Assembly (NCBI GenBank): GCA_900298985.1
Contig: OMHY01000070.1
Location: forward strand, 1-39,315
DNA from: Streptomycetaceae bacterium
Lineage (GTDB): Bacteria > Actinomycetota > Actinomycetes > Nanopelagicales > Nanopelagicaceae
Length of the DNA: 39,315 bases
Direction: 5' to 3'
This document shows, piece after piece, positions 6,111 through 18,402 of the stretch (the stretch's first letter is position 1; every line of letters starts with the position of its first letter). The position numbers and the translations under genes are program-made. The notes under the pieces are model-generated. The model saw nothing but the letters and a program-made list of their open reading frames with translations. It was not told where the DNA came from and ran no database searches.

Positions 6111-6117
6111 AATGCTC

Positions 6118-7914
6118 GTGGCTAAAGCAAGAATTTGGACAATAAATGTAGTTATTTTGACAATCATTGGCGTTGCTGGTTTTTGGGGGTATAAAACTCT
6201 TCATCCATCGCCCACCCCAATAATCCTTACCACTGTTCCTGTTACTCGAGGTGACGTTCAATCAACAGTTTCTGCCTCTGGAAAAGTTGTGAGCCCTGGA
6301 GATATTGGGCTTGCACCCTTAGTTTCCGGAACTTTAAAAACATTAAATGTTGTTGTCGGGCAAAAAGTTAATGCCGGAGAAGTATTAGCAACATTAGATA
6401 CTACAAATTTAAAGTTAGCTGTTGATCAAGCCAAAGCTGCTTTAATTACTGCTCAGTCTAATTTAAATAATGCCCAAGCATCTGCAAATAACGTTCAAAT
6501 TACATTACAACAAGATAAAGATGCAATTACTACTGCACAAACTAATTTAGATAATGAAAAACAAAATTTATCCATCGCAGCTCAAGGCTACCAACAGACG
6601 GTTGACAGCGCCCTAAAAGCATTAAATGATGCTAAGACCAACGCCGCCGCCGCTGCACCGACTTATCAATCAACTGTTGATACCGCACAAAAAGCACTTG
6701 ATACTGCGAATTTCAATTTACAAAATTTAGAGTGGACAAATGTTCAAACTCGCGTGCTTGATGTAAATGGAGCGCCTTTAACTGCACAATTTTGCTTGAC
6801 TTACTTGAATCAATATCAATTTGTAAATCCCAATTTAGTTAATACCTACAATACAAATTGCTCAAATTTAATTAACGATACGAATGCGATTGATACATCA
6901 CAAACCAATTTAAATAATGCAAAATTAGCGCAAGCTTCAAGTTTGGCAAAAGATGCGCAAACTATCCAAAACTTACAGACTGCATACGATAATGCGGTTA
7001 CCAATCAAAAAAATAGTTTAACTAAAGATAGCCAGGCTTTAGCTTCTTATCAAAGTGCCCTAAAGTCGGCGCAGGATGCTTTGACTACCTTTCAAAATAC
7101 CCAAAACTTAAATGATTCCAGCAATTCTACGACGCAATTAGCAATCAATTCAGCGCTCTCGACCATATTGATTGACGATCAAAATCTGGCGATAGCGCAG
7201 AAAAACCTAGCTGCAGCAACGATTACGGCACCGGTATCGGGCACTGTAGCTTCAATTAGCACTTCGGTGGGCGGAAATGTTCCAACAACTTTCAATAACG
7301 CTACAAATACCACAGCCGCAACTGGTTTCATAGTTTTAACAAATACATCTGGTCTTCGAATTTATGCAAGCTTCTCTGAAGCAGATACGGCTAAGTTAAG
7401 CGTTGGTCAAATGGCTACCTTTACCTTTGATTCATTACCTAATGTGAACGCCACTGGAAAATTGATCAATATTGATTTAAGTCCTACTACTTCTTCTGGT
7501 GCAACTACATACGGTGCAACATTTTCAATTGACAATTCTGTTCCTGGATTAAGAAATGGAATGACTTCATCTGCGAACGTTATTACCGGAATGGCGAGTA
7601 ACGTGATTAACGTCCCAGCGACTGCAATTACTTCCCGTGGATTTAATAGTTTTGTAAATGTTGTAACGGGAGTTGGAAAGAAACAAACTATTAAATTAAC
7701 CCCAGTAGTAATTGGACTTAAAGGCGACAGCGCAGATGAAATTATCTCCGGCTTGAAAGTTGGACAACAAGTATCTATCACAACTGCTCGAACAACATCT
7801 AATGGGTTTGCTGTCGGTGGAGTTCCAAATGGATTTAATAATCTAAGCGGCTCTAGCGGTTTGCGAGTTGGTGGTGGCGGTGGATTTGGTGGTGGCGGTG
7901 GATTTGGTGGTTAA
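6118..7914 (+). CDS. MacA/HlyD-like membrane-fusion protein of an ABC exporter
   Basis: An N-terminal membrane anchor (about residues 7-25) is followed by a first half-lipoyl segment with VSGTLKTLNVVVGQKVNAGE, a very long Gln/Asn/Ala-rich coiled coil (about 100-365), the second half-lipoyl segment (ATITAPVSGTVASI), beta-barrel and membrane-proximal domains, and a Gly/Phe tail. Such adaptors link an inner-membrane transporter to the outside; the next two genes supply ATPase and permease. The coiled coil is interrupted by an insert of about 50 residues with two Cys (about 226 and 248) where the hairpin tip should be. At about 598 residues it is much longer than E. coli MacA (about 370). Start: GTG 6118 fits a TAACCT box 7 bases upstream; ATG 6112 is the alternative. 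The substrate is unknown. Confidence 0.85.
   Translation: MAKARIWTINVVILTIIGVAGFWGYKTLHPSPTPIILTTVPVTRGDVQSTVSASGKVVSPGDIGLAPLVSGTLKTLNVVVGQKVNAGEVLATLDTTNLKLAVDQAKAALITAQSNLNNAQASANNVQITLQQDKDAITTAQTNLDNEKQNLSIAAQGYQQTVDSALKALNDAKTNAAAAAPTYQSTVDTAQKALDTANFNLQNLEWTNVQTRVLDVNGAPLTAQFCLTYLNQYQFVNPNLVNTYNTNCSNLINDTNAIDTSQTNLNNAKLAQASSLAKDAQTIQNLQTAYDNAVTNQKNSLTKDSQALASYQSALKSAQDALTTFQNTQNLNDSSNSTTQLAINSALSTILIDDQNLAIAQKNLAAATITAPVSGTVASISTSVGGNVPTTFNNATNTTAATGFIVLTNTSGLRIYASFSEADTAKLSVGQMATFTFDSLPNVNATGKLINIDLSPTTSSGATTYGATFSIDNSVPGLRNGMTSSANVITGMASNVINVPATAITSRGFNSFVNVVTGVGKKQTIKLTPVVIGLKGDSADEIISGLKVGQQVSITTARTTSNGFAVGGVPNGFNNLSGSSGLRVGGGGGFGGGGGFGG
7870..7905 (+). repeat. Two exact tandem 18-base units in the glycine tail
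   Basis: The 18-base unit at 7870-7887 is repeated exactly at 7888-7905 and encodes GGGGGF-type residues at the end of the membrane-fusion protein. Its other frame gives the low-complexity VVAVDL repeat, which argues against starting the ATPase gene at 7868. Slippage here could change tail length by six residues per unit. Confidence 0.85.
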
Positions 7915-8656
7915 TACAAAAAACCTAGCAACCATTAATTCAAACCGCAACGAATCAATACTTCCCGTTATTGAAATTAAAGATGCGGTAAAGCGATATG
8001 GGATGGGAGACAATTCGATCTATGCGCTAGCTGGAGTTAATTTACGAATAGTGCCTGGTGAGTACGTAGCGATTATGGGCCCGTCGGGAAGCGGTAAATC
8101 AACGCTCATGAACATGATGGGTTGTCTAGACATAATGACTTCTGGAAGTTATTTCCTAGATGGAATTGAAGTTAGTAAATTAGATGAGAATGCGCTTGCT
8201 GTTGTGCGGGGACATAAAATTGGATTTATTTTTCAATCTTTTAACTTAATACCTAGAACTAATGCGCTTTTAAACGTGGAGTTACCTATGGCCTACCAAG
8301 GAATAAAAAAAGAGGAAAGAAAATCTAGGGCAATCAAAGCTTTAGAAATAGTCGGTTTATCTGATCGCCTAAGTCACGATCCTTCAGAACTTTCTGGTGG
8401 GCAACAGCAAAGAGTTGCTGTAGCTAGGGCACTTGCGACGCGACCTGCTTTGTTATTAGCCGATGAGCCAACCGGAGCGCTGGATTCAAAATCTACCGCC
8501 GATTTATTAGATCTTTTTGATCAAATAAATGCTGCCGGAAGAACAGTGGTTTTAATTACTCACGAAAATGAGGTAGCAAATAGGGCTAAGCGAGTAGTGC
8601 ATATGCGAGATGGAAAAATAATTTCTGATGAAATAAATGAGGTAAGTATTAAATGA
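7907..8656 (+). CDS. MacB-type ABC exporter ATP-binding subunit
   Basis: A complete LolD/MacB-class ATPase of about 249 residues: Walker A GPSGSGKS, Q-loop FQSFNL, signature LSGGQQQRVAVARAL, Walker B LLLADEPTGALDS and switch His in LITHE. It powers the adjacent FtsX-type permease, probably as a mechanotransmission exporter rather than by classic import. The start is uncertain: GTG 7907 overlaps the upstream stop by 8 bases and has purine-rich sequence ahead of it. An upstream ATG at 7868 only adds a translation of the glycine repeat and was not used. The gene ends in an ATGA overlap with the permease, showing translational coupling. Confidence 0.9.
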   Translation: MVNTKNLATINSNRNESILPVIEIKDAVKRYGMGDNSIYALAGVNLRIVPGEYVAIMGPSGSGKSTLMNMMGCLDIMTSGSYFLDGIEVSKLDENALAVVRGHKIGFIFQSFNLIPRTNALLNVELPMAYQGIKKEERKSRAIKALEIVGLSDRLSHDPSELSGGQQQRVAVARALATRPALLLADEPTGALDSKSTADLLDLFDQINAAGRTVVLITHENEVANRAKRVVHMRDGKIISDEINEVSIK

Positions 8657-9879
8657 ATTTCTTAGAAATGTTTCGATTTGCCTTTGGCGGGTTAAGTACA
8701 AACAAAACTCGCACTTCTCTTACTACTTTAGGAATCGCAATCGGAGTTGCCTCAGTAATAATATTAATCGCAGTTGGAAATGGATCATCTCTTGCAATTC
8801 AAAAATCAATTGATCGGCTTGGAACAAACACTATTACAATTTTAGGTAACCGTGGGGGTTTTGGTGGTGGACGAGCAGCAGCGGCAAGAGCTGTGTCATC
8901 ACAACCACTAACTATTGGTGATGCGGTATCGTTAAATGATTCCATCAAAGCTCCAGATATTAAGCAAGCGGCTCCGGTTGTATCAACTAACGTCACTTGT
9001 TCAAATGGCGCAAACACTTCAACTCCCGGAACGTTTGATGGAACTTGGCCCTCTTGGTTTGAAGCTTCGAACACTTCTATCAAAGTTGGTAATTTTTTTA
9101 GTAATGATGATGTCACTAACGGCCATCGAGTAGCTGTTATTGGCAATACCACTGCGACTGATTTATTCCCAGGACAAAACCCAATCGGGCAAACTATTTC
9201 TTGTAGTGGAGTTAAATTTACCGTAATTGGTTTAACCAACCTCAAAGGTTCCAATGGATTTCAAGATGGAGATTCTTTAGTAGTTGCGCCAATCACTGTA
9301 GTACAAAGGTCTATAACTGGTTTTAGTAATATAAATTCAATTTTAGTCCAAGCAAAATCTGCTTCCGTGCAAAATAACGCTCAAACTGAAATTAATACGA
9401 TTATCGATGCTAGACATAGAATTAAAAATGTAAATAATCGCGACTATCGTACATTAAATCAAGCTTCGCTCTTGGCCACTTCTTCTAGTAATAGTGCAGT
9501 ATTTACTACCTTGCTTGGGGTCGTTGCGGCTATTTCGCTTCTGGTTGGGGGTATTGGAATTACTAACATAATGTTAGTTACGGTAATTGAAAGAACTCGT
9601 GAGATCGGAATACGAAAAGCAATTGGCGCACCTAAGCGCGCAATTCTCTCTCAATTTATTATTGAAGCAACTTTTTTATCCCTTTTTGGTGGTGTGATTG
9701 GTGTATTAGGTGGATTTCTTGGGTCACATTTCACTATTGTGGGAGTAAAGCCAGTAGTCGTGCCTTCTTCGGTCTTACTTGCTTTCGGCGTATCAGTTTT
9801 AATCGGATTATTCTTTGGGGGCTATCCAGCTTCCCGAGCAGCAGCACTTAGACCAATCGAGGCACTTCGTTATGAGTAA
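8653..9879 (+). CDS. MacB-type FtsX-family permease subunit
   Basis: 408 residues with the MacB/FtsX layout: one N-terminal membrane helix (about 20-43), a large extracytoplasmic MacB-PCD-like domain (about 45-275) with two Cys that could pair, and three C-terminal helices carrying the conserved ERTREIGIRKAIGA stretch. It starts with ATG inside the ATPase stop (ATGA). Shortly after the first helix is a RGGFGGGRAAAARA insert, which echoes the Gly/Phe segments of both neighbouring envelope proteins. Together with the ATPase and adaptor it forms a tripartite-like exporter. Actinobacteria lack a TolC-type outer-membrane partner, so the outer end of the pathway is unclear. Confidence 0.9.
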   Translation: MNFLEMFRFAFGGLSTNKTRTSLTTLGIAIGVASVIILIAVGNGSSLAIQKSIDRLGTNTITILGNRGGFGGGRAAAARAVSSQPLTIGDAVSLNDSIKAPDIKQAAPVVSTNVTCSNGANTSTPGTFDGTWPSWFEASNTSIKVGNFFSNDDVTNGHRVAVIGNTTATDLFPGQNPIGQTISCSGVKFTVIGLTNLKGSNGFQDGDSLVVAPITVVQRSITGFSNINSILVQAKSASVQNNAQTEINTIIDARHRIKNVNNRDYRTLNQASLLATSSSNSAVFTTLLGVVAAISLLVGGIGITNIMLVTVIERTREIGIRKAIGAPKRAILSQFIIEATFLSLFGGVIGVLGGFLGSHFTIVGVKPVVVPSSVLLAFGVSVLIGLFFGGYPASRAAALRPIEALRYE

Positions 9880-10768
9880 TGAAAATAATAGAGAAAATAT
9901 TGATTTATTTTCCCCATCAACTTCCGATAATTTGACAAAAATTTTAGAACGAGGAACTTATAAGTGGACTAACCGAGCCACTTATATCTTGTTAGGTTTA
10001 GCAGTTATAGCGGCATCTATTTCAGGTGGTATCTGGTGGGGAGTAAAACATCCGATACCCACTGTTACTCAAGGCGGTTCCTTGCGCTCTATATTTGCTG
10101 GTAGTGGCGGATTTGGTGGAGCAAGCGGTTCAGGTTTTGGGGGTGGATTTGGTGGCGGAAGCCGAGGTTCAGTTATTGACGTAAAAGGAAATACATTAAC
10201 CATCACCTTGAATCAACCAAATCCTAGTATTAAAGCAGGTGATCGAATTTCCATCACAGATAGAAGTTCCGCCGGAGGCAATTTCGGAATCAATCCTAAT
10301 CAATCAAGTTTGAATACAATTAATCAGCAACAAAATAGGAATAATAGCTCTAGAACATCAAATTCTAATTCACAATCACCTACTGGCGCTGAATCTTCTA
10401 ATGCGCCACAAAGTAGTAGAACGAATCAAAATAGTGCGGGACAATCTGCTAACAATGGGCAACAAAATGATTCAGGTTCGCAGAGCAATTCCGCTCCACA
10501 GAATAATTCAGGTCGAACTGGAAGTGACGCTCCAAGAGTTGGTGGGCAAGGTGGTGGACGGGGCGGATTCTTCAGTAACCCTGCATTTATTAAATGTTTA
10601 GCTGACAACGGAGTAACAATAACTCCTGGTGTTAGACCTGATCGAAATGATCCAAAAGTTGCTGCAGCGCTCCAAACTTGCTTTCAACAATTAGGCGCGT
10701 CGGGAGGCTTTGGAAATGGAAATAGTGGGGCTTCAAATTCTCAATCTGCAGCGGGAAATCAGGGCTAG
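9872..10768 (+). CDS. Membrane-anchored Gly- and Asn/Gln/Ser-rich protein of the exporter operon
   Basis: About 298 residues. A short cytoplasmic head is followed by one membrane helix (about residues 35-55). Then come a Gly/Phe segment rich in GFGG, a small beta segment (VIDVKGNTLTITL...GDRISI), a long Asn/Gln/Ser linker, and a C-terminal motif with two Cys (CLADNGVTITPG...DPKVAAALQTC). A Cys-x-x-x-x-G-V...DPK...C pattern of this kind occurs at the ends of other actinobacterial secreted proteins (from memory). ATG 9872 lies inside the permease stop region, with GAGG ahead, so it is coupled to the permease. An upstream in-frame ATG at 9815 would lie deep in the permease gene and is less likely. 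Function unknown; an accessory or substrate role for the exporter is an inference. Confidence 0.8.
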   Translation: MSNENNRENIDLFSPSTSDNLTKILERGTYKWTNRATYILLGLAVIAASISGGIWWGVKHPIPTVTQGGSLRSIFAGSGGFGGASGSGFGGGFGGGSRGSVIDVKGNTLTITLNQPNPSIKAGDRISITDRSSAGGNFGINPNQSSLNTINQQQNRNNSSRTSNSNSQSPTGAESSNAPQSSRTNQNSAGQSANNGQQNDSGSQSNSAPQNNSGRTGSDAPRVGGQGGGRGGFFSNPAFIKCLADNGVTITPGVRPDRNDPKVAAALQTCFQQLGASGGFGNGNSGASNSQSAAGNQG

Positions 10769-10860: not shown

Positions 10861-12201
10861 GTGCGAAAAACTCCAAATATTGGGAAGCGTGCAAATGCCG
10901 ACTGGGCATCTATTTTACTTGGAGTAGGTCTTGGCTTGACATTGGCAATTTATGTCAATAGTACAAAAATTTATGATTGGCACTCAGTTTATGCCATAAC
11001 TTTATCCTTATCCCGTATTTGCGCAATGCTCGGTGCCTATTTCTCCCTAGTTGGAGTTGTATTGGTTTCAAGAATAAATTGGATTGAAAAATCAGTTGGG
11101 CACGATCGTTTAGTGCTTTGGCATAGAAAGCTGGGGCCATATTCAATTTATTTAATAACTTTCCACGTGCTATTTGTAATTTTAAGTTATGCAGCAAGCG
11201 ATAGAGTCAAAATAGGGATGGAAACTTGGAGAATTTTATTTAATTATCCATGGATGATTCCCGCATATTTGGCTTTTGGGTTTTTAATTACAGCAGGAAT
11301 TACTTCCTATAAAAGAGTACGAAAAAAAATTTCTTATGAGACCTGGTGGACAATACATCTTTATACATACCTAGCTATCGGATTGGGATATATGCACCAG
11401 GTATTAATCGGTCCGATGTTCATAAGTAGCCAGATTTCTAAATATTATTGGTTATCTCTATATATTTTAGCATTTGGAACAATATTGTTGTGGAGAATCC
11501 TAATTCCGCTAACAAAATCTTTGATTCATAATCTTAAGGTCCAACAAATTGTACATGAAGGTCCAGGAGTATATTCGATAGTAATGAAGGGAAGAAATTT
11601 AGAGAAATTGAAAGCTCAAGGAGGTCAATTTTTTAGCTGGCGCTTTTTATCATCAGGTCAGTGGTGGATGTCTCATCCTTATTCGCTATCGGCTGCCCCA
11701 ACAAAAAATTATTTACGTGTAACCATAAAAGCATTAGGAGATCACTCAGGCCAAATAAAATTAATCAAACCTGGCACAAGGGTAATTTTTGAAGGCCCTT
11801 ATGGAACCTTTGTTGCAGCTAAAGCAAGCAAGGAGCACATTCTATTAGTGGGTGGCGGAGTCGGAATAACTCCTTTAAGAGCATTATTAGAAGAAATAGA
11901 TCCAGAAAAACAAATTGATGTAATTTATCGCACTTCAAATGAAAATGAATTAGTTTTAAGTAATGAACTAGATGAACTATGTAAATTAAAAGGAGCCCGA
12001 ATTCATTATTTAGTTGGTTCAAGAAATGAACATCCGATGTCAGCTAAAAATTTATTAAATTATGTTCCATCTTTAAGAGATTGTGACATTTACGTATGCG
12101 GCCCCACTGCAATGGTAGAAAGTTTACGGCAAGCGGCAAGAGAAATAGGTATTCCAAAAAACAGATTCCACGATGAAGTTTTTGAATTTCATGCGGTCTA
12201 G
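10861..12201 (+). CDS. Ferric-reductase-like di-heme membrane flavoprotein (FRD + FAD/NAD(P) domains)
   Basis: 446 residues. About six membrane helices fill residues 15-215, followed by a ferredoxin-reductase-like cytoplasmic half. Two helices carry His pairs with heme-type spacing: H88 and H102, and H166 and H179, consistent with two b hemes stacked across the membrane. The FAD motif HPYSLSAAP, the nucleotide-binding LLVGGGVGITPLRALLEE and the late CGPTAMVESLR plus FHDEVFEF match the FNR superfamily. The expected reaction is electron transfer from cytoplasmic NAD(P)H through FAD and hemes to an outside acceptor. The next gene encodes an exported FMN-binding protein 10 bases downstream, and an FMN transferase follows, so the likely acceptor is that flavoprotein. 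GTG start; no better start is seen. Confidence 0.87.
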   Translation: MRKTPNIGKRANADWASILLGVGLGLTLAIYVNSTKIYDWHSVYAITLSLSRICAMLGAYFSLVGVVLVSRINWIEKSVGHDRLVLWHRKLGPYSIYLITFHVLFVILSYAASDRVKIGMETWRILFNYPWMIPAYLAFGFLITAGITSYKRVRKKISYETWWTIHLYTYLAIGLGYMHQVLIGPMFISSQISKYYWLSLYILAFGTILLWRILIPLTKSLIHNLKVQQIVHEGPGVYSIVMKGRNLEKLKAQGGQFFSWRFLSSGQWWMSHPYSLSAAPTKNYLRVTIKALGDHSGQIKLIKPGTRVIFEGPYGTFVAAKASKEHILLVGGGVGITPLRALLEEIDPEKQIDVIYRTSNENELVLSNELDELCKLKGARIHYLVGSRNEHPMSAKNLLNYVPSLRDCDIYVCGPTAMVESLRQAAREIGIPKNRFHDEVFEFHAV

Positions 12202-12211
12202 AAAGTAGAAA

Positions 12212-12916
12212 ATGATGAAAAGAGTAATACTAATAAGTATAGGTGCACTTGGAAGTTTAGGTGCTGTTATGACCATAACCCCTCCACAATTCGGAAAAAA
12301 CGGTCCATCTTTAGGAACATCCGGAAATTCAAAAACAACTACGAAACAACAATCAATTACTACAGCGACGACTGCTCAATCCTCAAATCAACCATCAAAT
12401 CAAAATACAAATCTAAACAACGTCCAAGCTAGTAGTAAGGTATCGCCGAAATCCACTAATAAAAACTCAACAAATACTAAAAAGAAGAACCTTAAAAGTA
12501 AAAAAAAGAAATTACCTGTTGCCAATTCTAATTTACAATCACAAAATTCCAATAATTCAACATCTACTAGTAGTTCTGAATCTAATTCGACTAATACCCA
12601 TAAAAACACTGTTCCTTCTAATACCCAATCTTCAGGGATATCCGGGGTATTTAGTGGGGAAATAGCTCAAACCTTTTACGGGCCAGTTCAAGTCCAAATT
12701 ACCGTTAAAGATGGAAAAATTATCGATGCTAAAGGCTTACAGTATCCAACAGAAAGTTTTAGGGACCAAGCAATTAATAGTCAGGCTATTCCATATTTGG
12801 TGCAAGAAACTTTACAAGCGCAAAGCGCTAATATTCAAGGTGTTGGTGGTGCTTCTTATACCTCTCAAGGCTGGCAACAGTCTTTACAATCAGCACTTTC
12901 TAAAGCCGGGCTCTAG
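12212..12916 (+). CDS. Exported FMN-binding domain protein (probable ApbE substrate)
   Basis: 234 residues: an N-terminal signal or anchor helix (about 4-24), a long Ser/Thr/Asn linker with a strongly basic patch (KKKNLKSKKKKLP), and a C-terminal FMN_bind domain (about 145-234). The domain shows VQITVKDGKIIDAKGLQYP and ends in GVGGASYTSQGWQQSLQSAL. In the family the acceptor site is usually (S/T)GAT with FMN bound to Thr; here it reads GGAS, so Ser would be the acceptor. Ser flavinylation by ApbE is known for some fumarate and urocanate reductases. It probably carries electrons outside the membrane, received from the upstream reductase. The anchor has KR but no twin-arginine motif. Confidence 0.85.
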   Translation: MMKRVILISIGALGSLGAVMTITPPQFGKNGPSLGTSGNSKTTTKQQSITTATTAQSSNQPSNQNTNLNNVQASSKVSPKSTNKNSTNTKKKNLKSKKKKLPVANSNLQSQNSNNSTSTSSSESNSTNTHKNTVPSNTQSSGISGVFSGEIAQTFYGPVQVQITVKDGKIIDAKGLQYPTESFRDQAINSQAIPYLVQETLQAQSANIQGVGGASYTSQGWQQSLQSALSKAGL

Positions 12917-12993
12917 ATAAATTTTCTATAATCATTTTTTATCTCTTAAACTTTATAATTAATTTAAAATGTTTTTAATTTTATAGGATAAAA

Positions 12994-13023
12994 TTGAAAA
13001 CCTTACAAAAATTGAAGTAGATT
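12994..13023 (+). promoter_or_regulatory. Leaderless promoter of the ApbE gene
   Basis: TTGAAA at 12994-12999, an 18-base spacer and TAGATT at 13018-13023 are followed by 6 bases and GTG 13030. A second perfect TATAAT lies at 12954-12959 but would give a leader of about 65 bases. Confidence 0.6.
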
Positions 13024-13029
13024 AAGAAT

Positions 13030-13857
13030 GTGAATTTACCATACCCCAAATTTAAGATAGTAAATGGACGTATTCATGCTACCTTTGAAATCTGGGGAAC
13101 TATTATATATTTTGATTGTGCAGGTGATTTTATAGGTCGTTCTTTTAATCAAAGACAAAATAAAAAAATAAAAGAAGGTATAAGAAAAGTTTGTGATTTT
13201 TTTAGTTTAGTTGATGATATTTTTTCAACTTATAAAAATGACAGTGAGGTGTCTAGGTTAAGACGAGGTGAAATATTAAGCAGCGATACTTCGGATTTAT
13301 TTCAAGAAGTGTGGCATTTATCTTTAATTTGGAAAGATATAACAGAAGGTGCCTTTGACCCATGGTCAGTTAGAGATGGATACGATCCATCTGGTCTAGT
13401 TAAAGGTTGGGCGGCAGACAAAGGGGTTAAAATTCTCAAAGATTTTGGTGCTAAAAGCATTCAAATAAACGCAGCTGGTGATTTGTCACTGGCAGGTGGT
13501 TTTCCGAGTCCTGATGACCCGAACGCTCCATGGAAGATCGGAATCAGAGACCCAGAAAATCCTCTTAAAATACTTAAAGTTTTTTCAATTAAGGAAGGCG
13601 CTATAGCTACATCGGGAACATACGAGCGAGGGTCGCACATCATCGATCCATTTACTAATTTAATAGCAATTGGTGCACTTTCAGCTACTGTATATGGACC
13701 AAGTGGAACAGGATGTGATGTACTTGCAACTGCACTAATAGTTTCAGGTAAAGATGGAGTGCGGTGGTTTCAAAGAAAAGAGTTAAGTGATTTTGGATGT
13801 TGGGTTATCGAAAGAAATGAAAGAGCATCTTGGTCTTATAATCACCAATTGACATGA
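13030..13857 (+). CDS. apbE: FAD:protein FMN transferase, ApbE family
   Basis: 275 residues with the ApbE landmarks in order: SEVSRLRRGE, FDPWSVRDGYDPSGLVKGWAAD split around the KG core, INAAGDLSLAGG, TSGTYERGSHIIDPFT, and the late VYGPSGTGCDVLATAL containing the metal-binding Asp. The enzyme moves FMN from FAD onto a Ser or Thr of a partner protein; the obvious partner is the FMN-binding protein one gene upstream. No signal peptide or lipobox is visible, although many ApbE proteins act outside the membrane. Either flavinylation happens before export here, or the enzyme leaves by another route. GTG start supported by a TAGATT box 6 bases ahead and the lack of a better start. Confidence 0.88.
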   Translation: MNLPYPKFKIVNGRIHATFEIWGTIIYFDCAGDFIGRSFNQRQNKKIKEGIRKVCDFFSLVDDIFSTYKNDSEVSRLRRGEILSSDTSDLFQEVWHLSLIWKDITEGAFDPWSVRDGYDPSGLVKGWAADKGVKILKDFGAKSIQINAAGDLSLAGGFPSPDDPNAPWKIGIRDPENPLKILKVFSIKEGAIATSGTYERGSHIIDPFTNLIAIGALSATVYGPSGTGCDVLATALIVSGKDGVRWFQRKELSDFGCWVIERNERASWSYNHQLT

Positions 13858-13979
13858 TATGCGTAATTTTTTATATTAAAAAATATCCAGATAAATATTT
13901 AAGGAATTTAGCCATGCATTTTGACTTCAAATGTAAGTGTACTTAAATGACATCCATCTGTTTATTAAAGATTTCATTC

Positions 13980-14008
13980 TTCAAAATTTTAATTTAGCCA
14001 TATATTAT
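13980..14008 (+). promoter_or_regulatory. Leaderless promoter of the sugar kinase gene
   Basis: TTCAAA at 13980-13985, a 17-base spacer and TATTAT at 14003-14008 stand 6 bases before ATG 14015. This fixes the start against the upstream in-frame ATG at 13937. Confidence 0.6.
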
Positions 14009-14014
14009 CTTCTC

Positions 14015-14980
14015 ATGGATAGGAATATTTGGGTATGTGGTGAAGTCCTAATTGATTTAATCCCAATTGAACGAAAACCTAATGTACCTAAAAAAGCAAT
14101 TGTTGGTGGCGGTCCAGCAAATACTGCAACTGCCCTAGCTAAATTAGGTTGCACCACATTCTTTATTGATGGCATCTCAACTAGTGATGATTTTGGTAAA
14201 TCTTGCCAAGAATATTTAATAAAAAATGGAGTTGATCTATCTCTAGCTTATTTTGTCTCTAAGCCTACCTCTACTGCGGATGTAACTTTAGATGAAAATG
14301 GAGGCGCTAGTTATATATTTACTTTTGATGGTACGGCCACATTTGATTATTTAGAAAGTTGGCTACCAACTACAAACCTTCCAGATCTATTACATATTGG
14401 TACTTTAGCTACCATTATTGAACCCGGTGCATCTATACTTTTGAAGTGGGCTAGAGAGTTATCTAAGAATATACCTATAGTGCTTGATCCAAATATTAGG
14501 CCAACTGTAATTTCAGATAATGTTAAATATCAAAGTTATATTGAGCCTTGGATAGAAATAGCACAATTTATAAAAGTTAGTGAAGATGACATTAATTGGC
14601 TATATCCAAATAAAAGTGAGAAAGAAATAATTTTTAATTGGATAAATCTAGGTGCTAAATTAGTTGTAGTTACTCGTGGTAGTTCTGGTATCTCTGGTTA
14701 TTATTCAATTAATCAGGAGATTAAAAAGGTTCATGTTTCGGGAGTAAAAATTCAAGTAGTAGATACGGTGGGTGCAGGAGATACGGTTGGTGCAATTTTG
14801 GCTAAGGAAATAGTTACTAATCCTAATTTTTATTTAGATTCAAAAAAGTTAGAAAATAATTTAAGACAAGCAGCGATAGCAGCCGCAATGACCTGTTCCC
14901 GGGCGGGTGCAAATACTCCAACCAGCGAAGAGTTAAATGCAGCAACTCTAGAGTTTGAAAAGAAGGGAAATGTTTTTTAG
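14015..14980 (+). CDS. PfkB-family carbohydrate kinase (fructokinase-like)
   Basis: About 321 residues, normal for ribokinase/PfkB sugar kinases. The glycine-rich first signature (VGGGPANTATALAKLG) sits near residues 30-45, and the ATP/anion-hole signature DTVGAGDTVGA near residue 255 contains the catalytic Asp. It phosphorylates a sugar, most likely fructose or a related hexose; the exact substrate cannot be read. ATG 14015 was chosen because of the TATTAT box 6 bases upstream and because the family N-terminus begins here. The epimerase gene starts on the base after its stop codon, so the two are co-transcribed and likely act on the same sugar pool. Confidence 0.85.
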   Translation: MDRNIWVCGEVLIDLIPIERKPNVPKKAIVGGGPANTATALAKLGCTTFFIDGISTSDDFGKSCQEYLIKNGVDLSLAYFVSKPTSTADVTLDENGGASYIFTFDGTATFDYLESWLPTTNLPDLLHIGTLATIIEPGASILLKWARELSKNIPIVLDPNIRPTVISDNVKYQSYIEPWIEIAQFIKVSEDDINWLYPNKSEKEIIFNWINLGAKLVVVTRGSSGISGYYSINQEIKKVHVSGVKIQVVDTVGAGDTVGAILAKEIVTNPNFYLDSKKLENNLRQAAIAAAMTCSRAGANTPTSEELNAATLEFEKKGNVF

Positions 14981-15808
14981 ATGGAATATTTAGTGGGAAA
15001 TGAAATTAATCTAGAGGTTGATTTAGATCATGGAGGTCGCATTACCTCTCTGGAATGGAATGGTATTGAATTTACTTTGCCCTATTCCTCACCTCTGAAA
15101 GGTGGATGTTATGTAATGGGACCTTGGGCAGGAAGAGTTAGAGATGGAAGGTTAAAAACTGCTGCCGGTAAATATGTTGATCTTCCAACACATATTGATC
15201 CACCAAATGCAATTCACGGTTATGGTTTTGATTCCTCTTGGCAATTATTGCGAAATGATGGGCGTAATCGAATTTCAATGAAATTAGATTTGCCGGCACC
15301 ATATAAAGGCGGGATGTTAGAACAAAAAATTGAACTTCTAGATAATGCTTTGCGCTGGAGTATGGAATATTTTCCGGGCGAAGTAGAGCTACCAGCCTGG
15401 TTAGGATTTCATCCTTGGTTTGCTCGGACTTTGAAACAAAATGGAGTTGAGTTAGGTGATGAAGTAGAGATTAATTTCACTGCTCAAAAAATATTAGAAC
15501 GTGGAATAGATCATTTACCAACTGGAAAATTATTGGATTTTTCTCCGGATATTAAAAATAAAGTATTAGATGATGCATTTAAAGGTATGGTTGGTATTCC
15601 TTCAATAGTTTGGCCCGGCATTGCACGTATCGAAATTGAATCAGATGTTGATTGGTGGGTCATATATAACGGTGATGAAGAAGGTGTTTGTCTAGAGCCA
15701 ATGACCGCACCACCAGATGCAGCCAATTTAGACTTATTTGATATTAATGGAAAAATATCAGAAAGTATTGAAGCACTTTTTGTTTTTAACTCTGATTATG
15801 AAATATAG
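14981..15808 (+). CDS. Aldose 1-epimerase family protein
   Basis: 275 residues with the galactose-mutarotase-like pattern: DHGGRITSLEWNG at the N-terminus, MGPWAGRVRDGRL, the conserved His in AIHGYGFD, and a second His in LGFHPWFAR. The family interconverts alpha and beta anomers of aldoses; the substrate here is not defined. It begins directly after the sugar-kinase stop codon and probably supplies the correct anomer to sugar metabolism. The stop codon TAG (15806-15808) lies inside the -10 box of the next gene. Confidence 0.85.
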   Translation: MEYLVGNEINLEVDLDHGGRITSLEWNGIEFTLPYSSPLKGGCYVMGPWAGRVRDGRLKTAAGKYVDLPTHIDPPNAIHGYGFDSSWQLLRNDGRNRISMKLDLPAPYKGGMLEQKIELLDNALRWSMEYFPGEVELPAWLGFHPWFARTLKQNGVELGDEVEINFTAQKILERGIDHLPTGKLLDFSPDIKNKVLDDAFKGMVGIPSIVWPGIARIEIESDVDWWVIYNGDEEGVCLEPMTAPPDAANLDLFDINGKISESIEALFVFNSDYEI

Positions 15809-15809
15809 T
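15804..15809 (+). promoter_or_regulatory. -10 box of a leaderless promoter for the aminotransferase
   Basis: TATAGT stands 6 bases before GTG 15816 and overlaps the stop codon of the upstream epimerase gene. TTGTTT at 15780-15785 is a possible -35 with an 18-base spacer. Confidence 0.5.
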
Positions 15810-15815
15810 TAGTAA

Positions 15816-17177
15816 GTGAGCAAAGTAGCTATAAATAAAGATAATCTAAAAAAATTAATTGAAAAAGAAAACCAAAGATTTTTAAACAATCACAAAATAT
15901 CTGGGGAGTTGTTTAAAAAAGCCCAAGGAGTAATGCCAGGTGGGGTACCAATGTCTTGGATGGCTAAATGGCCTGGTTCTTATCCAGTTTTTGTAGATAA
16001 AGCTAAAGGCGCTCACTTTACAGATGTAGATGGAAATGAATACGTAGATTTTTGTTTAGGCGATACCGGTTCTATGACTGGTCACAGTCCAGCTGCAACT
16101 GTTGCGGAAATCAATCGGCAAATGAACCGGGGAATTACCGCAATGTTACCAACTGAAGATGCGGTAATAGTTTCGCAAGAATTAGCAAATAGATTTGGTT
16201 TACCACTTTGGCAATACACTGTTTCAGCAACTGATGCTAATCGAAATGTTATTCGATATGCCAGAGCAATCACTGGTAGATCAAAAGTTATAGTAATTGA
16301 TTATTGTTATCATGGAAGTGTTGATGAAACTTTTGCTACTTTAAATGATGCAGGTGAAGTAGTACAGAGAATGGGAAATATTGGTGCTCCAGTCCCAGCA
16401 AAAATAACTACCAAAGTAGTTCCTTTTAATGATTTAGCAGCGATGGAAAAAGCATTAGCTGATAAAGATGTAGCAGCGATTTTAATGGAACCTGCCATGA
16501 CCAATATTGGAATTGTGTTACCACTACCTGGTTATTTGAAGGAAGTAGAGGAGTTAAGTAAAAAATATGGAACACTATTAATTATTGATGAAACCCATAC
16601 TATTTCAGCTGGTTGGGGGGGGATGGTACGAAGAGATAACCTGCACCCAGATTTCTTTACTATTGGCAAAGCCATTGCAGGGGGCCTTCCAACTGGTGCT
16701 TTTGGAATGACGGAAGAAGTAGCAGATCGAATTAAATCAATTGTAAGAAGAGAATATATAGATACAGTGGGAATTGGCGGAACTTTAGCGGGAAATGCTT
16801 TGAGTTTAGCTGCAATGCGAGTTACGTTAACGCAAGTAATGACCAAAGATAATTTTACTAAAATGATTGCATTGGCTGATGCATGGAGTGATGGAGTAGA
16901 TGCTGCAATCACTAAATACAATCTGCCTTGGCACTGCAATAGATTAGGTGCGCGTGGCGAATATTTATTTTTAGATCATGCACCATTAAATGGCAGGGAA
17001 GCTGCTGATGCCGGAGATTTTGAATTAGAACAATACTTGCATTTGCGAGCCCTAAATGATGGATTTTTAATTACACCATTTCATAATATGGCCTTGATGT
17101 GTCCAGATACATCAAAAGCAGATGTAGATAAACATACTAAAGCTTTTGATGAAATGTGTGGTGAATTAGTTAGTTAA
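15816..17177 (+). CDS. Class III PLP aminotransferase, GSA-aminomutase-like
   Basis: 453 residues, close to the HemL/aspartate-aminotransferase-family length. It shows VMPGGVPMS near the N-terminus, the phosphate-cup segment YCYHGSVDE, the PLP-ring Asp in LLIIDETHT, and the Schiff-base Lys (about K285) in TIGKAIAGGLPTGAFG. It resembles glutamate-1-semialdehyde aminomutase, but the segment usually carrying NSGTEA reads SATDAN. A different amino donor or acceptor is therefore likely, and hemL is not assigned. It follows sugar genes and runs tail to tail into glnR with a 4-base overlap. No Shine-Dalgarno sequence is present; the GTG start fits the TATAGT box. Confidence 0.85.
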   Translation: MSKVAINKDNLKKLIEKENQRFLNNHKISGELFKKAQGVMPGGVPMSWMAKWPGSYPVFVDKAKGAHFTDVDGNEYVDFCLGDTGSMTGHSPAATVAEINRQMNRGITAMLPTEDAVIVSQELANRFGLPLWQYTVSATDANRNVIRYARAITGRSKVIVIDYCYHGSVDETFATLNDAGEVVQRMGNIGAPVPAKITTKVVPFNDLAAMEKALADKDVAAILMEPAMTNIGIVLPLPGYLKEVEELSKKYGTLLIIDETHTISAGWGGMVRRDNLHPDFFTIGKAIAGGLPTGAFGMTEEVADRIKSIVRREYIDTVGIGGTLAGNALSLAAMRVTLTQVMTKDNFTKMIALADAWSDGVDAAITKYNLPWHCNRLGARGEYLFLDHAPLNGREAADAGDFELEQYLHLRALNDGFLITPFHNMALMCPDTSKADVDKHTKAFDEMCGELVS

Positions 17178-17911
17178 TCTACACTTACTAAATCATTTTT
17201 AGAATCTGCAGAATCAGAGTTGAAGCGATAACCAACGTTTCGCACTGTACCGATCATTCCTTCTTCAGATCCTAATTTAGAACGCAACCTTCTAATATGA
17301 ACATCTACTGTTCTAGTACCGCCGTAATAATCGTAACCCCAAATTTCATGTAACAATTGTGACCTAGAAAAAACTCGACCAGGATGTTGTGCTAGAAATT
17401 TCAATAATTCAAATTCTTTATAAGTTAAATCTAAAACGCGACCACGAATTTTGGCAGTAAAGGTATGTTCATCAATAACTACATCTCCACTTTTTATTTC
17501 ATTAATAGCATTGTTAGCACTTTGACTATCTCTTCTCTCTAACAAAATGCGTAGTCTACTTTCTACCTCTGCCACAGTAGCATTACTTAAAATAATTTCA
17601 TTAAATCCCCAACTAGCACTTAAGGCAGGTAAGGAAGAATCACTTGAAATTAAAATAATTGGTAATCCAACACTAGTATTTGCAACTAATTTGCAAATAT
17701 TTTTGGCAGTTGCCAAATCTTTTCTGCCATCAATTGCCACTAAGTCACAATTAGGTTGATTAATTAGTAAAGCTGGATCGGCCGGCAATATCTCAACTTG
17801 GTGCTGTAAAAAGCCCAAAGCGGGCAAAATTACTGAGAGCACATTATTGACTCCACCATCTCGATTCTTTCGATCGATGGCTAATGTTGTGAGAATAGCA
17901 ATTCGTGCCAT
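17174..17911 (-). CDS. glnR: GlnR-type orphan OmpR-family response regulator
   Basis: 245 residues. The N-terminal half is an atypical receiver domain with LPALGFL and VAIDGRKDLATAK, which matches actinobacterial GlnR rather than a normal phospho-receiver: most of the acidic pocket is missing, with only the Asp of the IDGRKDL segment kept. The C-terminal half is a winged helix with TYKEFELLKFLAQHPGRVF, then WGYDYYGGTRTVDVHIRRLR and GTVRNVGYRF. GlnR controls nitrogen assimilation genes in actinobacteria and has no cognate kinase; none is encoded beside it. ATG 17911 has a TATCCT box 9 bases upstream. It is divergent from the fur-like gene, with 65 bases between start codons. Confidence 0.85.
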   Translation of the reverse strand: MARIAILTTLAIDRKNRDGGVNNVLSVILPALGFLQHQVEILPADPALLINQPNCDLVAIDGRKDLATAKNICKLVANTSVGLPIILISSDSSLPALSASWGFNEIILSNATVAEVESRLRILLERRDSQSANNAINEIKSGDVVIDEHTFTAKIRGRVLDLTYKEFELLKFLAQHPGRVFSRSQLLHEIWGYDYYGGTRTVDVHIRRLRSKLGSEEGMIGTVRNVGYRFNSDSADSKNDLVSVD

Positions 17912-17920
17912 AGCGGGTTA

Positions 17921-17926
17921 AGGATA
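17921..17926 (-). promoter_or_regulatory. -10 box of the glnR promoter
   Basis: On the minus strand TATCCT lies 9 bases before ATG 17911, giving a leader of only about 2-3 bases. It shares the short divergent region with the fur promoter. Confidence 0.4.
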
Positions 17927-17964
17927 CTCTGGAATTAGATTCCATGCTTCGCCCCTTATCTCGC

Positions 17965-17970
17965 TACAAT
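17965..17970 (+). promoter_or_regulatory. -10 box of a leaderless promoter for the fur-like gene
   Basis: TACAAT stands 6 bases before GTG 17977. It would lie inside the gene if ATG 17944 were used, so GTG 17977 is preferred. Confidence 0.6.
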
Positions 17971-17976
17971 AACAAG

Positions 17977-18402
17977 GTGGCTGAGAAAAATGAGATTAGA
18001 AATTTAGGTTTGCGCTTAACTCCACAACGAGAGTTGGTATTGAATGCGGTAAGAGAGTTGGGGCATGCGACACCAGAAGAGGTTGCTGAAAAAGTAAGAC
18101 AGGTCCATCCCGGTATTAATCTCAGCACGGTATATCGAAATCTAGAAACATTAGAAAATGTAGGTTTGGTGCTACACACACATTTAGGTCATGGTGGAGC
18201 TACCTATCATGCATCAGAGGAGCTAACACATTTACATTTAGTATGCAGTGTTTGTGGATCTATTGGTGATGCTCCAATCACCGCTGCTGCTTCTTTTGTA
18301 CAAGGCTTGCTTGATGATTATGGTTTCCATACCGATGTGACACATTTTGCAATTACTGGTACCTGTGAAAATTGTTCAGAAACTATTAATAAAATCTCTT
18401 AA
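17977..18402 (+). CDS. Fur-family metal-responsive transcriptional regulator
   Basis: About 141 residues. A winged helix (LRLTPQRELVLNAVRELGHAT, followed by NLSTVYRNLETLENVGLV) leads to a dimerisation and metal domain with His-rich HASEELTHLHL, a first CxxC (CSVC) and a second CxxC (CENC). The two CxxC pairs indicate the structural zinc site. The regulated metal (iron, zinc or nickel) cannot be told from sequence alone. It is followed by ygfZ, an iron-sulfur-related gene, which makes an iron or redox link plausible. GTG 17977 is chosen from the TACAAT box; ATG 17944 would add 11 residues. Confidence 0.85.
   Translation: MAEKNEIRNLGLRLTPQRELVLNAVRELGHATPEEVAEKVRQVHPGINLSTVYRNLETLENVGLVLHTHLGHGGATYHASEELTHLHLVCSVCGSIGDAPITAAASFVQGLLDDYGFHTDVTHFAITGTCENCSETINKIS

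Follow-up and report, generated by a model that had tools for sequence, protein, structure and literature searches.

MsrQ-like flavinylation clusters are broadly conserved in Actinobacteria (Meheust et al. 2021, PMC8238504). In these clusters a PF01794 cytochrome with a C-terminal NAD-binding domain is encoded adjacent to FMN_bind and apbE genes, and electrons are predicted to flow out of the cell (PMC8238504). The site at which ApbE attaches flavin mononucleotide (FMN) has been published as D-x-x-[S/T]-G-A-[S/T], a motif in which a Ser acceptor is already allowed (PMC8238504; PMC12052999). Here we describe a trio of the same layout at positions 10861–13857 of a 39,315-nucleotide stretch, hereafter the window, of contig OMHY01000070.1 from a Streptomycetaceae bacterium (assembly GCA_900298985.1, GTDB family Nanopelagicaceae). 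We put at roughly 80% the probability, judged from sequence and predicted structure, that the trio is an MsrQ-like, i.e. NADPH oxidase (NOX)-like, extracytosolic flavin electron-transfer cluster with an ApbE site that has been relaxed across the lineage. As MsrQ-like clusters have been described in Actinobacteria, the kind of system is known and the trio is ordinary in kind; it is slightly odd in the window and odder across the lineage. The real oddity as read from the sequences, missed by an initial annotation of this DNA, is that the motif Asp is lost and that in some relatives the motif Gly is lost as well. No account of Asp-less sites or of the trio in acI bacteria was found in a literature search that left out most subscription journals.

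The trio runs head to tail on the forward strand in the order FRD, FMN_bind and ApbE, with gaps of 10 and then 113 bases. FRD (10861–12201, 446 residues) is annotated from Pfam as an NADPH-oxidase-like transmembrane di-heme reductase with a cytosolic flavin adenine dinucleotide (FAD) and NAD(P)H domain, scoring 59.6 bits for Ferric_reduct (PF01794), 41.9 for NAD_binding_1 and 29.4 for FAD_binding_8. It thus stands 10 bases upstream of FMN_bind with apbE next, which is the gene content of an MsrQ-like cluster. The FMN_bind gene (12212–12916, 234 residues) encodes an N-terminally anchored electron carrier that reached 29.1 bits against PF04205 (cut-off 22), and its domain membership is borne by this profile together with the 8p2a fold described below. 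ApbE (13030–13857, 275 residues), an FAD:protein FMN transferase without export signal, scored 120.5 bits against PF02424 and belongs to its family on profile, fold and catalytic Ser, His and Asp. Four candidate heme ligands in FRD were found to be invariant across 21 aligned relatives, namely His88 (codon 11122–11124), predicted to pair with His102 (11164–11166), and His166 (11356–11358), predicted to pair with His179 (11395–11397). The initial annotation had described a consecutive di-heme reductase, FMN_bind protein and ApbE; all three open reading frames were recovered with Pfam support, the histidines fit the di-heme label, and the proposed theme, in which a membrane reductase passes electrons to an FMN_bind protein flavinylated by ApbE, is well supported. 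Unlike some MsrQ-like clusters, no VIT1 iron transporter was found among the 10 window proteins scanned. The draft genome to which the window belongs (1.35 Mb, 134 contigs, 89% complete) holds a single FMN_bind place and a single ApbE gene, both within the trio.

The acceptor site was located by comparison with a solved flavoprotein. An AlphaFold model of the window FMN_bind domain (predicted local distance difference test score, pLDDT, 96.1) was matched best by Foldseek, among solved structures, to 8p2a, domain 2 of SaFMN3 from Streptomyces azureus (template modelling (TM) scores 0.91/0.96, root-mean-square deviation 0.9 Å, 48% identity). In 8p2a FMN is bound covalently to Thr72, Tyr14 and Ile45 stack on the ring, and the flavin is also held by Ser42, which bonds N5, and by atoms of Gly70, Tyr73 and Thr74 (PMC10339131). 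A profile alignment set the family site against IDAVSGATYTS of 8p2a, the window reading IQGVGGASYTS, and the alignments gave identical window counterparts for Tyr14, Ile45, Gly70, Tyr73 and Thr74; the substitutions are Ser215 for Thr72, Gln209 for Asp66 and an Asp for Ser42. Because the modelled domain matches 8p2a with its FMN on Thr72, Ser215 (codon 12854–12856) is the probable acceptor by homology, within a predicted flavinylation site QGVGGAS (12836–12856, forward strand) that is supported by the 8p2a and family alignments and has Gln209 in place of Asp. GGAS comprises residues 212–215, of which G213-A214-S215 conform to the G-A-[S/T] part of the motif, and the two departures are Gln209 six residues before the acceptor and Gly212, where Ser or Thr is specified, three residues before it. 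Attachment to the neighbouring Thr217 of GGASYTS instead of Ser215 seems very improbable, for although at least 90% of the aligned family and class rows share this Thr, it ends no published motif and its 8p2a equivalent, Thr74, makes a hydrogen bond to the flavin, which is itself attached at Thr72 (PMC10339131). Asp66 is not among the flavin contacts listed for 8p2a, which fits a role in recognition by ApbE rather than in holding the flavin. SaFMN3 thus shares with the window protein its fold and flavin pocket, an N-terminal anchor and an adjacent flavin transferase gene; it differs in having three tandem domains and IDAVSGAT with Asp and Thr, the window protein having one domain and IQGVGGAS. 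The window likewise differs from the clusters of Meheust et al., for which the form [S/T]GA[S/T] was used (PMC8238504), in that QGVGGAS falls outside this form and in that ApbE is leaderless.

In order to evaluate how far the altered site extends, FMN_bind was searched in 101 genomes of the family of the window and found at 79 places in 52 of them; the 78 places outside the window were taken as 76 regions. Of the 86 aligned family domains, 66 have Ser as acceptor residue and the other 20 have Thr. The initial annotation had regarded GGAS as an unusual acceptor motif; Ser as the surprise was rejected, being part of the published motif and the family majority. Conservation of Ser among relatives, proposed at the time as a check, is thus predominant and not universal, and relatives with a different conserved acceptor Thr, which were to count against Ser215, did not occur, since the same position carried Ser or Thr in 86/86 domains. 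The first motif position was Gln in 46 family domains, Asn in 11, Ser in 10, Ala in 6, Pro in 5 and another residue in 8, with Asp in none, and the position three before the acceptor was Ser in 47 rows, Gly in 36 and Thr in 3. Across the rest of the class (74 unique framed domains from 90 loci) Asp occupied the first position in 61 of the 74 domains and the acceptor was Thr in 61 and Ser in 11, 2 rows being misframed. In a further sample of the phylum, counted by hand, 24 of 29 rows had Asp and the other 5 had Gln, each time as QA[IV]TGAT, so that Gln at this position is not unique to the family of the window. With more family loci added, Asp was present in 2 of 136 unique family-plus-named domains. 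A few rows in these motif-frame counts are misframed (3 family, 2 class) and 19 frameless domains were set aside (16 phylum, 2 named, 1 class).

The history of the site was examined on a FastTree phylogeny of FRD comprising 114 rows (52 family, 35 named, 27 class), for which FRD was required within 1.2 kb on the same strand and duplicates were removed. All 87 family and named rows fell into one clade (support 99), and the Asp-less clade also included 4 class rows of families f25, f38 and f39 (support 95). The minimum number of changes on this tree was at least 3 for Asp loss and at least 12 for the Ser/Thr acceptor. On the simplest reading Asp would have been lost early, once for the Asp-less clade, and the acceptor would have flipped repeatedly.

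Still more eroded sites were observed among the 80 named loci, which are mostly freshwater actinobacterial metagenome-assembled genomes (MAGs), two of them titled Candidatus Nanopelagicaceae, and include the complete genomes IMCC25003 and IMCC26103, which we take to be acI strains. FMN_bind was found at 73 of these loci and ApbE at 61. Eleven of their domains lacked the search pattern; one, at L308, proved to be an ordinary VSGAT that the pattern missed, and the others read QGVSRAS, TGVSSAS, LYVSRVT, SCRSRAS, SCRSQAS and TAVTHAT. In the SCRS forms LPC-x5-CRS directly precedes the acceptor, meaning that the motif Gly is lost and a Cys pair is gained. Proteins with LPC-x5-CRS[RQ]AS[YF]TA occur in acI-type genomes at L333 (7293–8018), L298 (7318–8010), L301, L332, L187, L190, L197, L199 and L200. 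The record of L332 is titled as a Bifidobacterium breve MAG, but its place in the FRD tree is among acI sequences, and the genome is probably mislabelled. A Pfam scan of L333 and L298, the two most eroded proteins scanned, found no family; proteins of their type were detected by the family profile at E values of 4e-23 to 5e-17, the profile having been built partly from such sequences. These relatives retain both the operon and the catalytic residues of ApbE. The C-x5-C form falls in two distinct regions of the FRD phylogeny, and therefore likely represents an old second FMN_bind copy or a transfer; tandem FMN_bind genes are present in L049, L060 and L101. We tentatively propose, as possible though on the doubtful side, that in the family of the window and allied families the recognition code of ApbE has been rewritten to accept, in the cytosol prior to export, sites that lack Asp and, in part of the acI strains, IMCC25003 (L333) among them, sites that also lack Gly (SCRS[RQ]AS[YF]TA with the new C-x5-C pair before the acceptor), and that the acI Cys pair beside FMN could serve as a flavin-disulfide relay. 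With no Pfam match in the two most eroded acI forms scanned, counts of flavinylated electron carriers may be too low for an abundant freshwater lineage. The sites form a natural gradation between DxxSGAT and SCRSQAS, mostly with their own ApbE alongside, and make the substrate needs of ApbE directly testable.

The AlphaFold model of the window ApbE (pLDDT 89.7) had V. cholerae ApbE (6nxi, TM 0.71) as best fold match, and alignment with solved ApbEs matched Ser195 (codon 13612–13614), His203 (13636–13638) and Asp230 (13717–13719) to V. cholerae Ser241, His257 and Asp285, whose catalytic roles have been described (PMC12052999). Across 31 aligned ApbEs, among them the partners of the eroded sites in L333, L298 and L288, Ser195 and His203 do not vary and Asp230 reaches at least 90% conservation; the ApbE of L044 has Glu instead of the catalytic Asp. 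In the fumarate reductase of K. pneumoniae, change of the motif Asp to Ala had a minor effect and changes of Gly to Ala and of Ala to Val left about 50% of flavinylation, and ApbE can use Ser, Thr to Ser costing 10–55% (PMC12052999). This reported mutant tolerance supports tolerance of a site without Asp.

ApbE was present in 52/52 FMN_bind-positive family genomes of the 101 (Fisher p 1.3e-20, relatedness ignored). Eight family genomes had ApbE but no Pfam FMN_bind; five of these (G010, G015, G036, G039 and G047) carry a diverged FMN_bind between FRD and ApbE, in G053 ApbE is cut by the contig end, and G023 and G035 retain an ApbE with no adjoining FRD or FMN_bind. The absence of Asp from all 86 family domains, the loss of Gly in several relatives and these two solitary ApbEs could be taken to mean that the motif is decaying, such that FMN_bind would no longer carry a covalent flavin, binding it at most loosely, and ApbE would persist to serve a different substrate or activity. 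We regard this as quite unlikely, given a Ser or Thr at every acceptor position, retention of ApbE in every FMN_bind genome, a flavin pocket and ApbE catalytic residues that are both kept, and the lack of a second FMN_bind in the genome of the window. The orphan ApbE of G023 and G035 (L402/L403) adjoins a thioredoxin-like gene, FRD and FMN_bind being missing in between (compare L040). A thioredoxin-like neighbour was also considered as a clue to the electron acceptor and dropped as inconsistent, since it stands beside FRD in L040, L095 and L338 and farther away elsewhere.

A change in ApbE accompanying the loss of Asp was sought as well. At the conserved Met of the ApbE 'MGT' start, all 48 family pairs carry Trp (W22), as do 28 of the 29 pairs from named loci, the remaining one having a gap. 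Among the class pairs, the 18 with Asp show Met 15 times and a gap 3 times, and the 6 without Asp show Trp 3 times and Met, Leu and a gap once each. L392 (Asp with Trp) and L400 (no Asp but Met) break the pattern, and many other ApbE columns split the clades too, so that ancestry explains the division equally well. The substitution was accordingly rejected as a co-change and kept as a lead only.

The place of flavin attachment was approached through hydropathy, a crude test and not a signal-peptide prediction. The window ApbE frame opens only three codons before its GTG start and has no hydrophobic segment ahead of the domain; being an exported lipoprotein is typical of ApbEs and does not define them. 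None of 48 class ApbEs had such a segment within the 60 residues preceding the domain, nor did 46 of 50 family ApbEs, the 4 flagged being stop-to-stop frames that run back over the FMN_bind gene. The lack of an export signal, initially called unusual, was thus confirmed as an observation and rejected as a surprise of the window, being the norm in the class sample. The FMN_bind protein carries a hydrophobic signal anchor at residues 5–23 (12224–12280, forward strand; hydropathy 2.06) after MMKR, with no twin-arginine motif, and of 85 family proteins, 78 have a hydrophobic stretch ahead of the domain, 4 lack one and 3 are too short for a verdict, whilst all 65 class proteins have it. In the window and relatives alike this stretch usually follows directly on basic residues, which suggests that the domain faces outside. 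With an export signal on FMN_bind and none on ApbE, the most likely place of flavin attachment is the cytosol, before the carrier is exported or as this happens. A textbook-style alternative, in which ApbE is carried out of the cell by an unrecognised route and modifies the domain after its export, would agree with characterised ApbEs being typically periplasmic (PMC12052999) and with the periplasmic action assumed for SaFMN3 (PMC10339131); we consider it unlikely in view of the leaderless class and family ApbEs and of the existence of cytosolic ApbEs such as that of K. pneumoniae (PMC12052999). Like the window ApbE, the K. pneumoniae enzyme acting on fumarate reductase has no signal peptide, but its substrate is soluble and cytoplasmic (PMC12052999), whereas that of the window has a membrane anchor. 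A leaderless ApbE with an anchored substrate poses the question of where the flavin is attached and how the flavin-bearing domain is exported. Exclusion of twin-arginine translocation (Tat) by genome content was rejected, as TatC is present in 97/101 family genomes; it was not found in the 89%-complete draft of the window, which is likely a gap.

Several observations weigh against the assignment as a flavinylated MsrQ-like cluster. The window site misses two of the five specified positions in D-x-x-[S/T]-G-A-[S/T], and an Asp stands where 8p2a has its N5-bonding Ser42. Attachment in the cytosol followed by export needs a route, and no Tat motif was seen in FMN_bind. Finally, in G023 and G035 no Pfam FMN_bind was found genome-wide, so ApbE may have another role.

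The MsrQ-like assignment would entail the following path. NAD(P)H would reduce the cytosolic FAD of FRD, as judged from its family, and two b hemes, presumably held by His88/His102 and His166/His179, would pass the electrons across the membrane. These would then reduce the FMN that ApbE is predicted to have linked by an ester bond to Ser215 in the anchored carrier; in this lineage the enzyme may accept a relaxed site that lacks Asp and mostly has Ser. A flexible linker rich in Ser, Thr, Asn and Lys would let the domain reach an acceptor, most plausibly O2 or Fe(III).

A rival view on the acceptor, though not on the flavin relay, is that the trio works mainly as an NADPH oxidase producing reduced oxygen species on the outer side of the cell, FMN_bind being the end that reacts with oxygen. 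The solved chains closest to FRD are NOX-like: 8qt6, 8qq7 and 8qta, each titled 'FAD-binding FR-type domain-containing protein' (E about 1e-14), which we take to be the S. pneumoniae NOX. As in this group of bacterial reductases, a membrane heme domain is fused to an FAD/NAD(P)H domain in FRD, with the sites HPYS, GPYG, GGGVGI and CGP present; in contrast to them, FRD is genetically tied to a predicted flavinylated carrier. Reduced SaFMN3 is reoxidised by O2 at 1.2 per second (PMC10339131), but the O2 reactivity of a free flavoprotein says little on its natural acceptor, and an iron transporter occurs in 153 of 1797 other MsrQ-like clusters (PMC8238504). We hold the reading as chiefly an oxidase to be rather doubtful.

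Directly upstream of FRD (6112–10768) the window holds MacAB-like exporter genes (HlyD, ABC ATPase and FtsX permease) and a low-complexity anchored protein with two C-terminal Cys. A weak ExtJ match of an upstream open reading frame was under the cut-off (19.9 vs 52.5) and was dropped. The HlyD gene stands instead just downstream of ApbE in 11 of 53 FRD-bearing family loci, usually with the remaining exporter unit, meaning that this unit has moved across the trio. The trio is followed (13937–18402) by pfkB, an aldose epimerase, an aminotransferase-looking gene, a GlnR-like regulator and a Fur-like gene, of which the aminotransferase-looking and Fur-like genes were named by appearance. This order from pfkB to the Fur-like gene is kept in many family loci.

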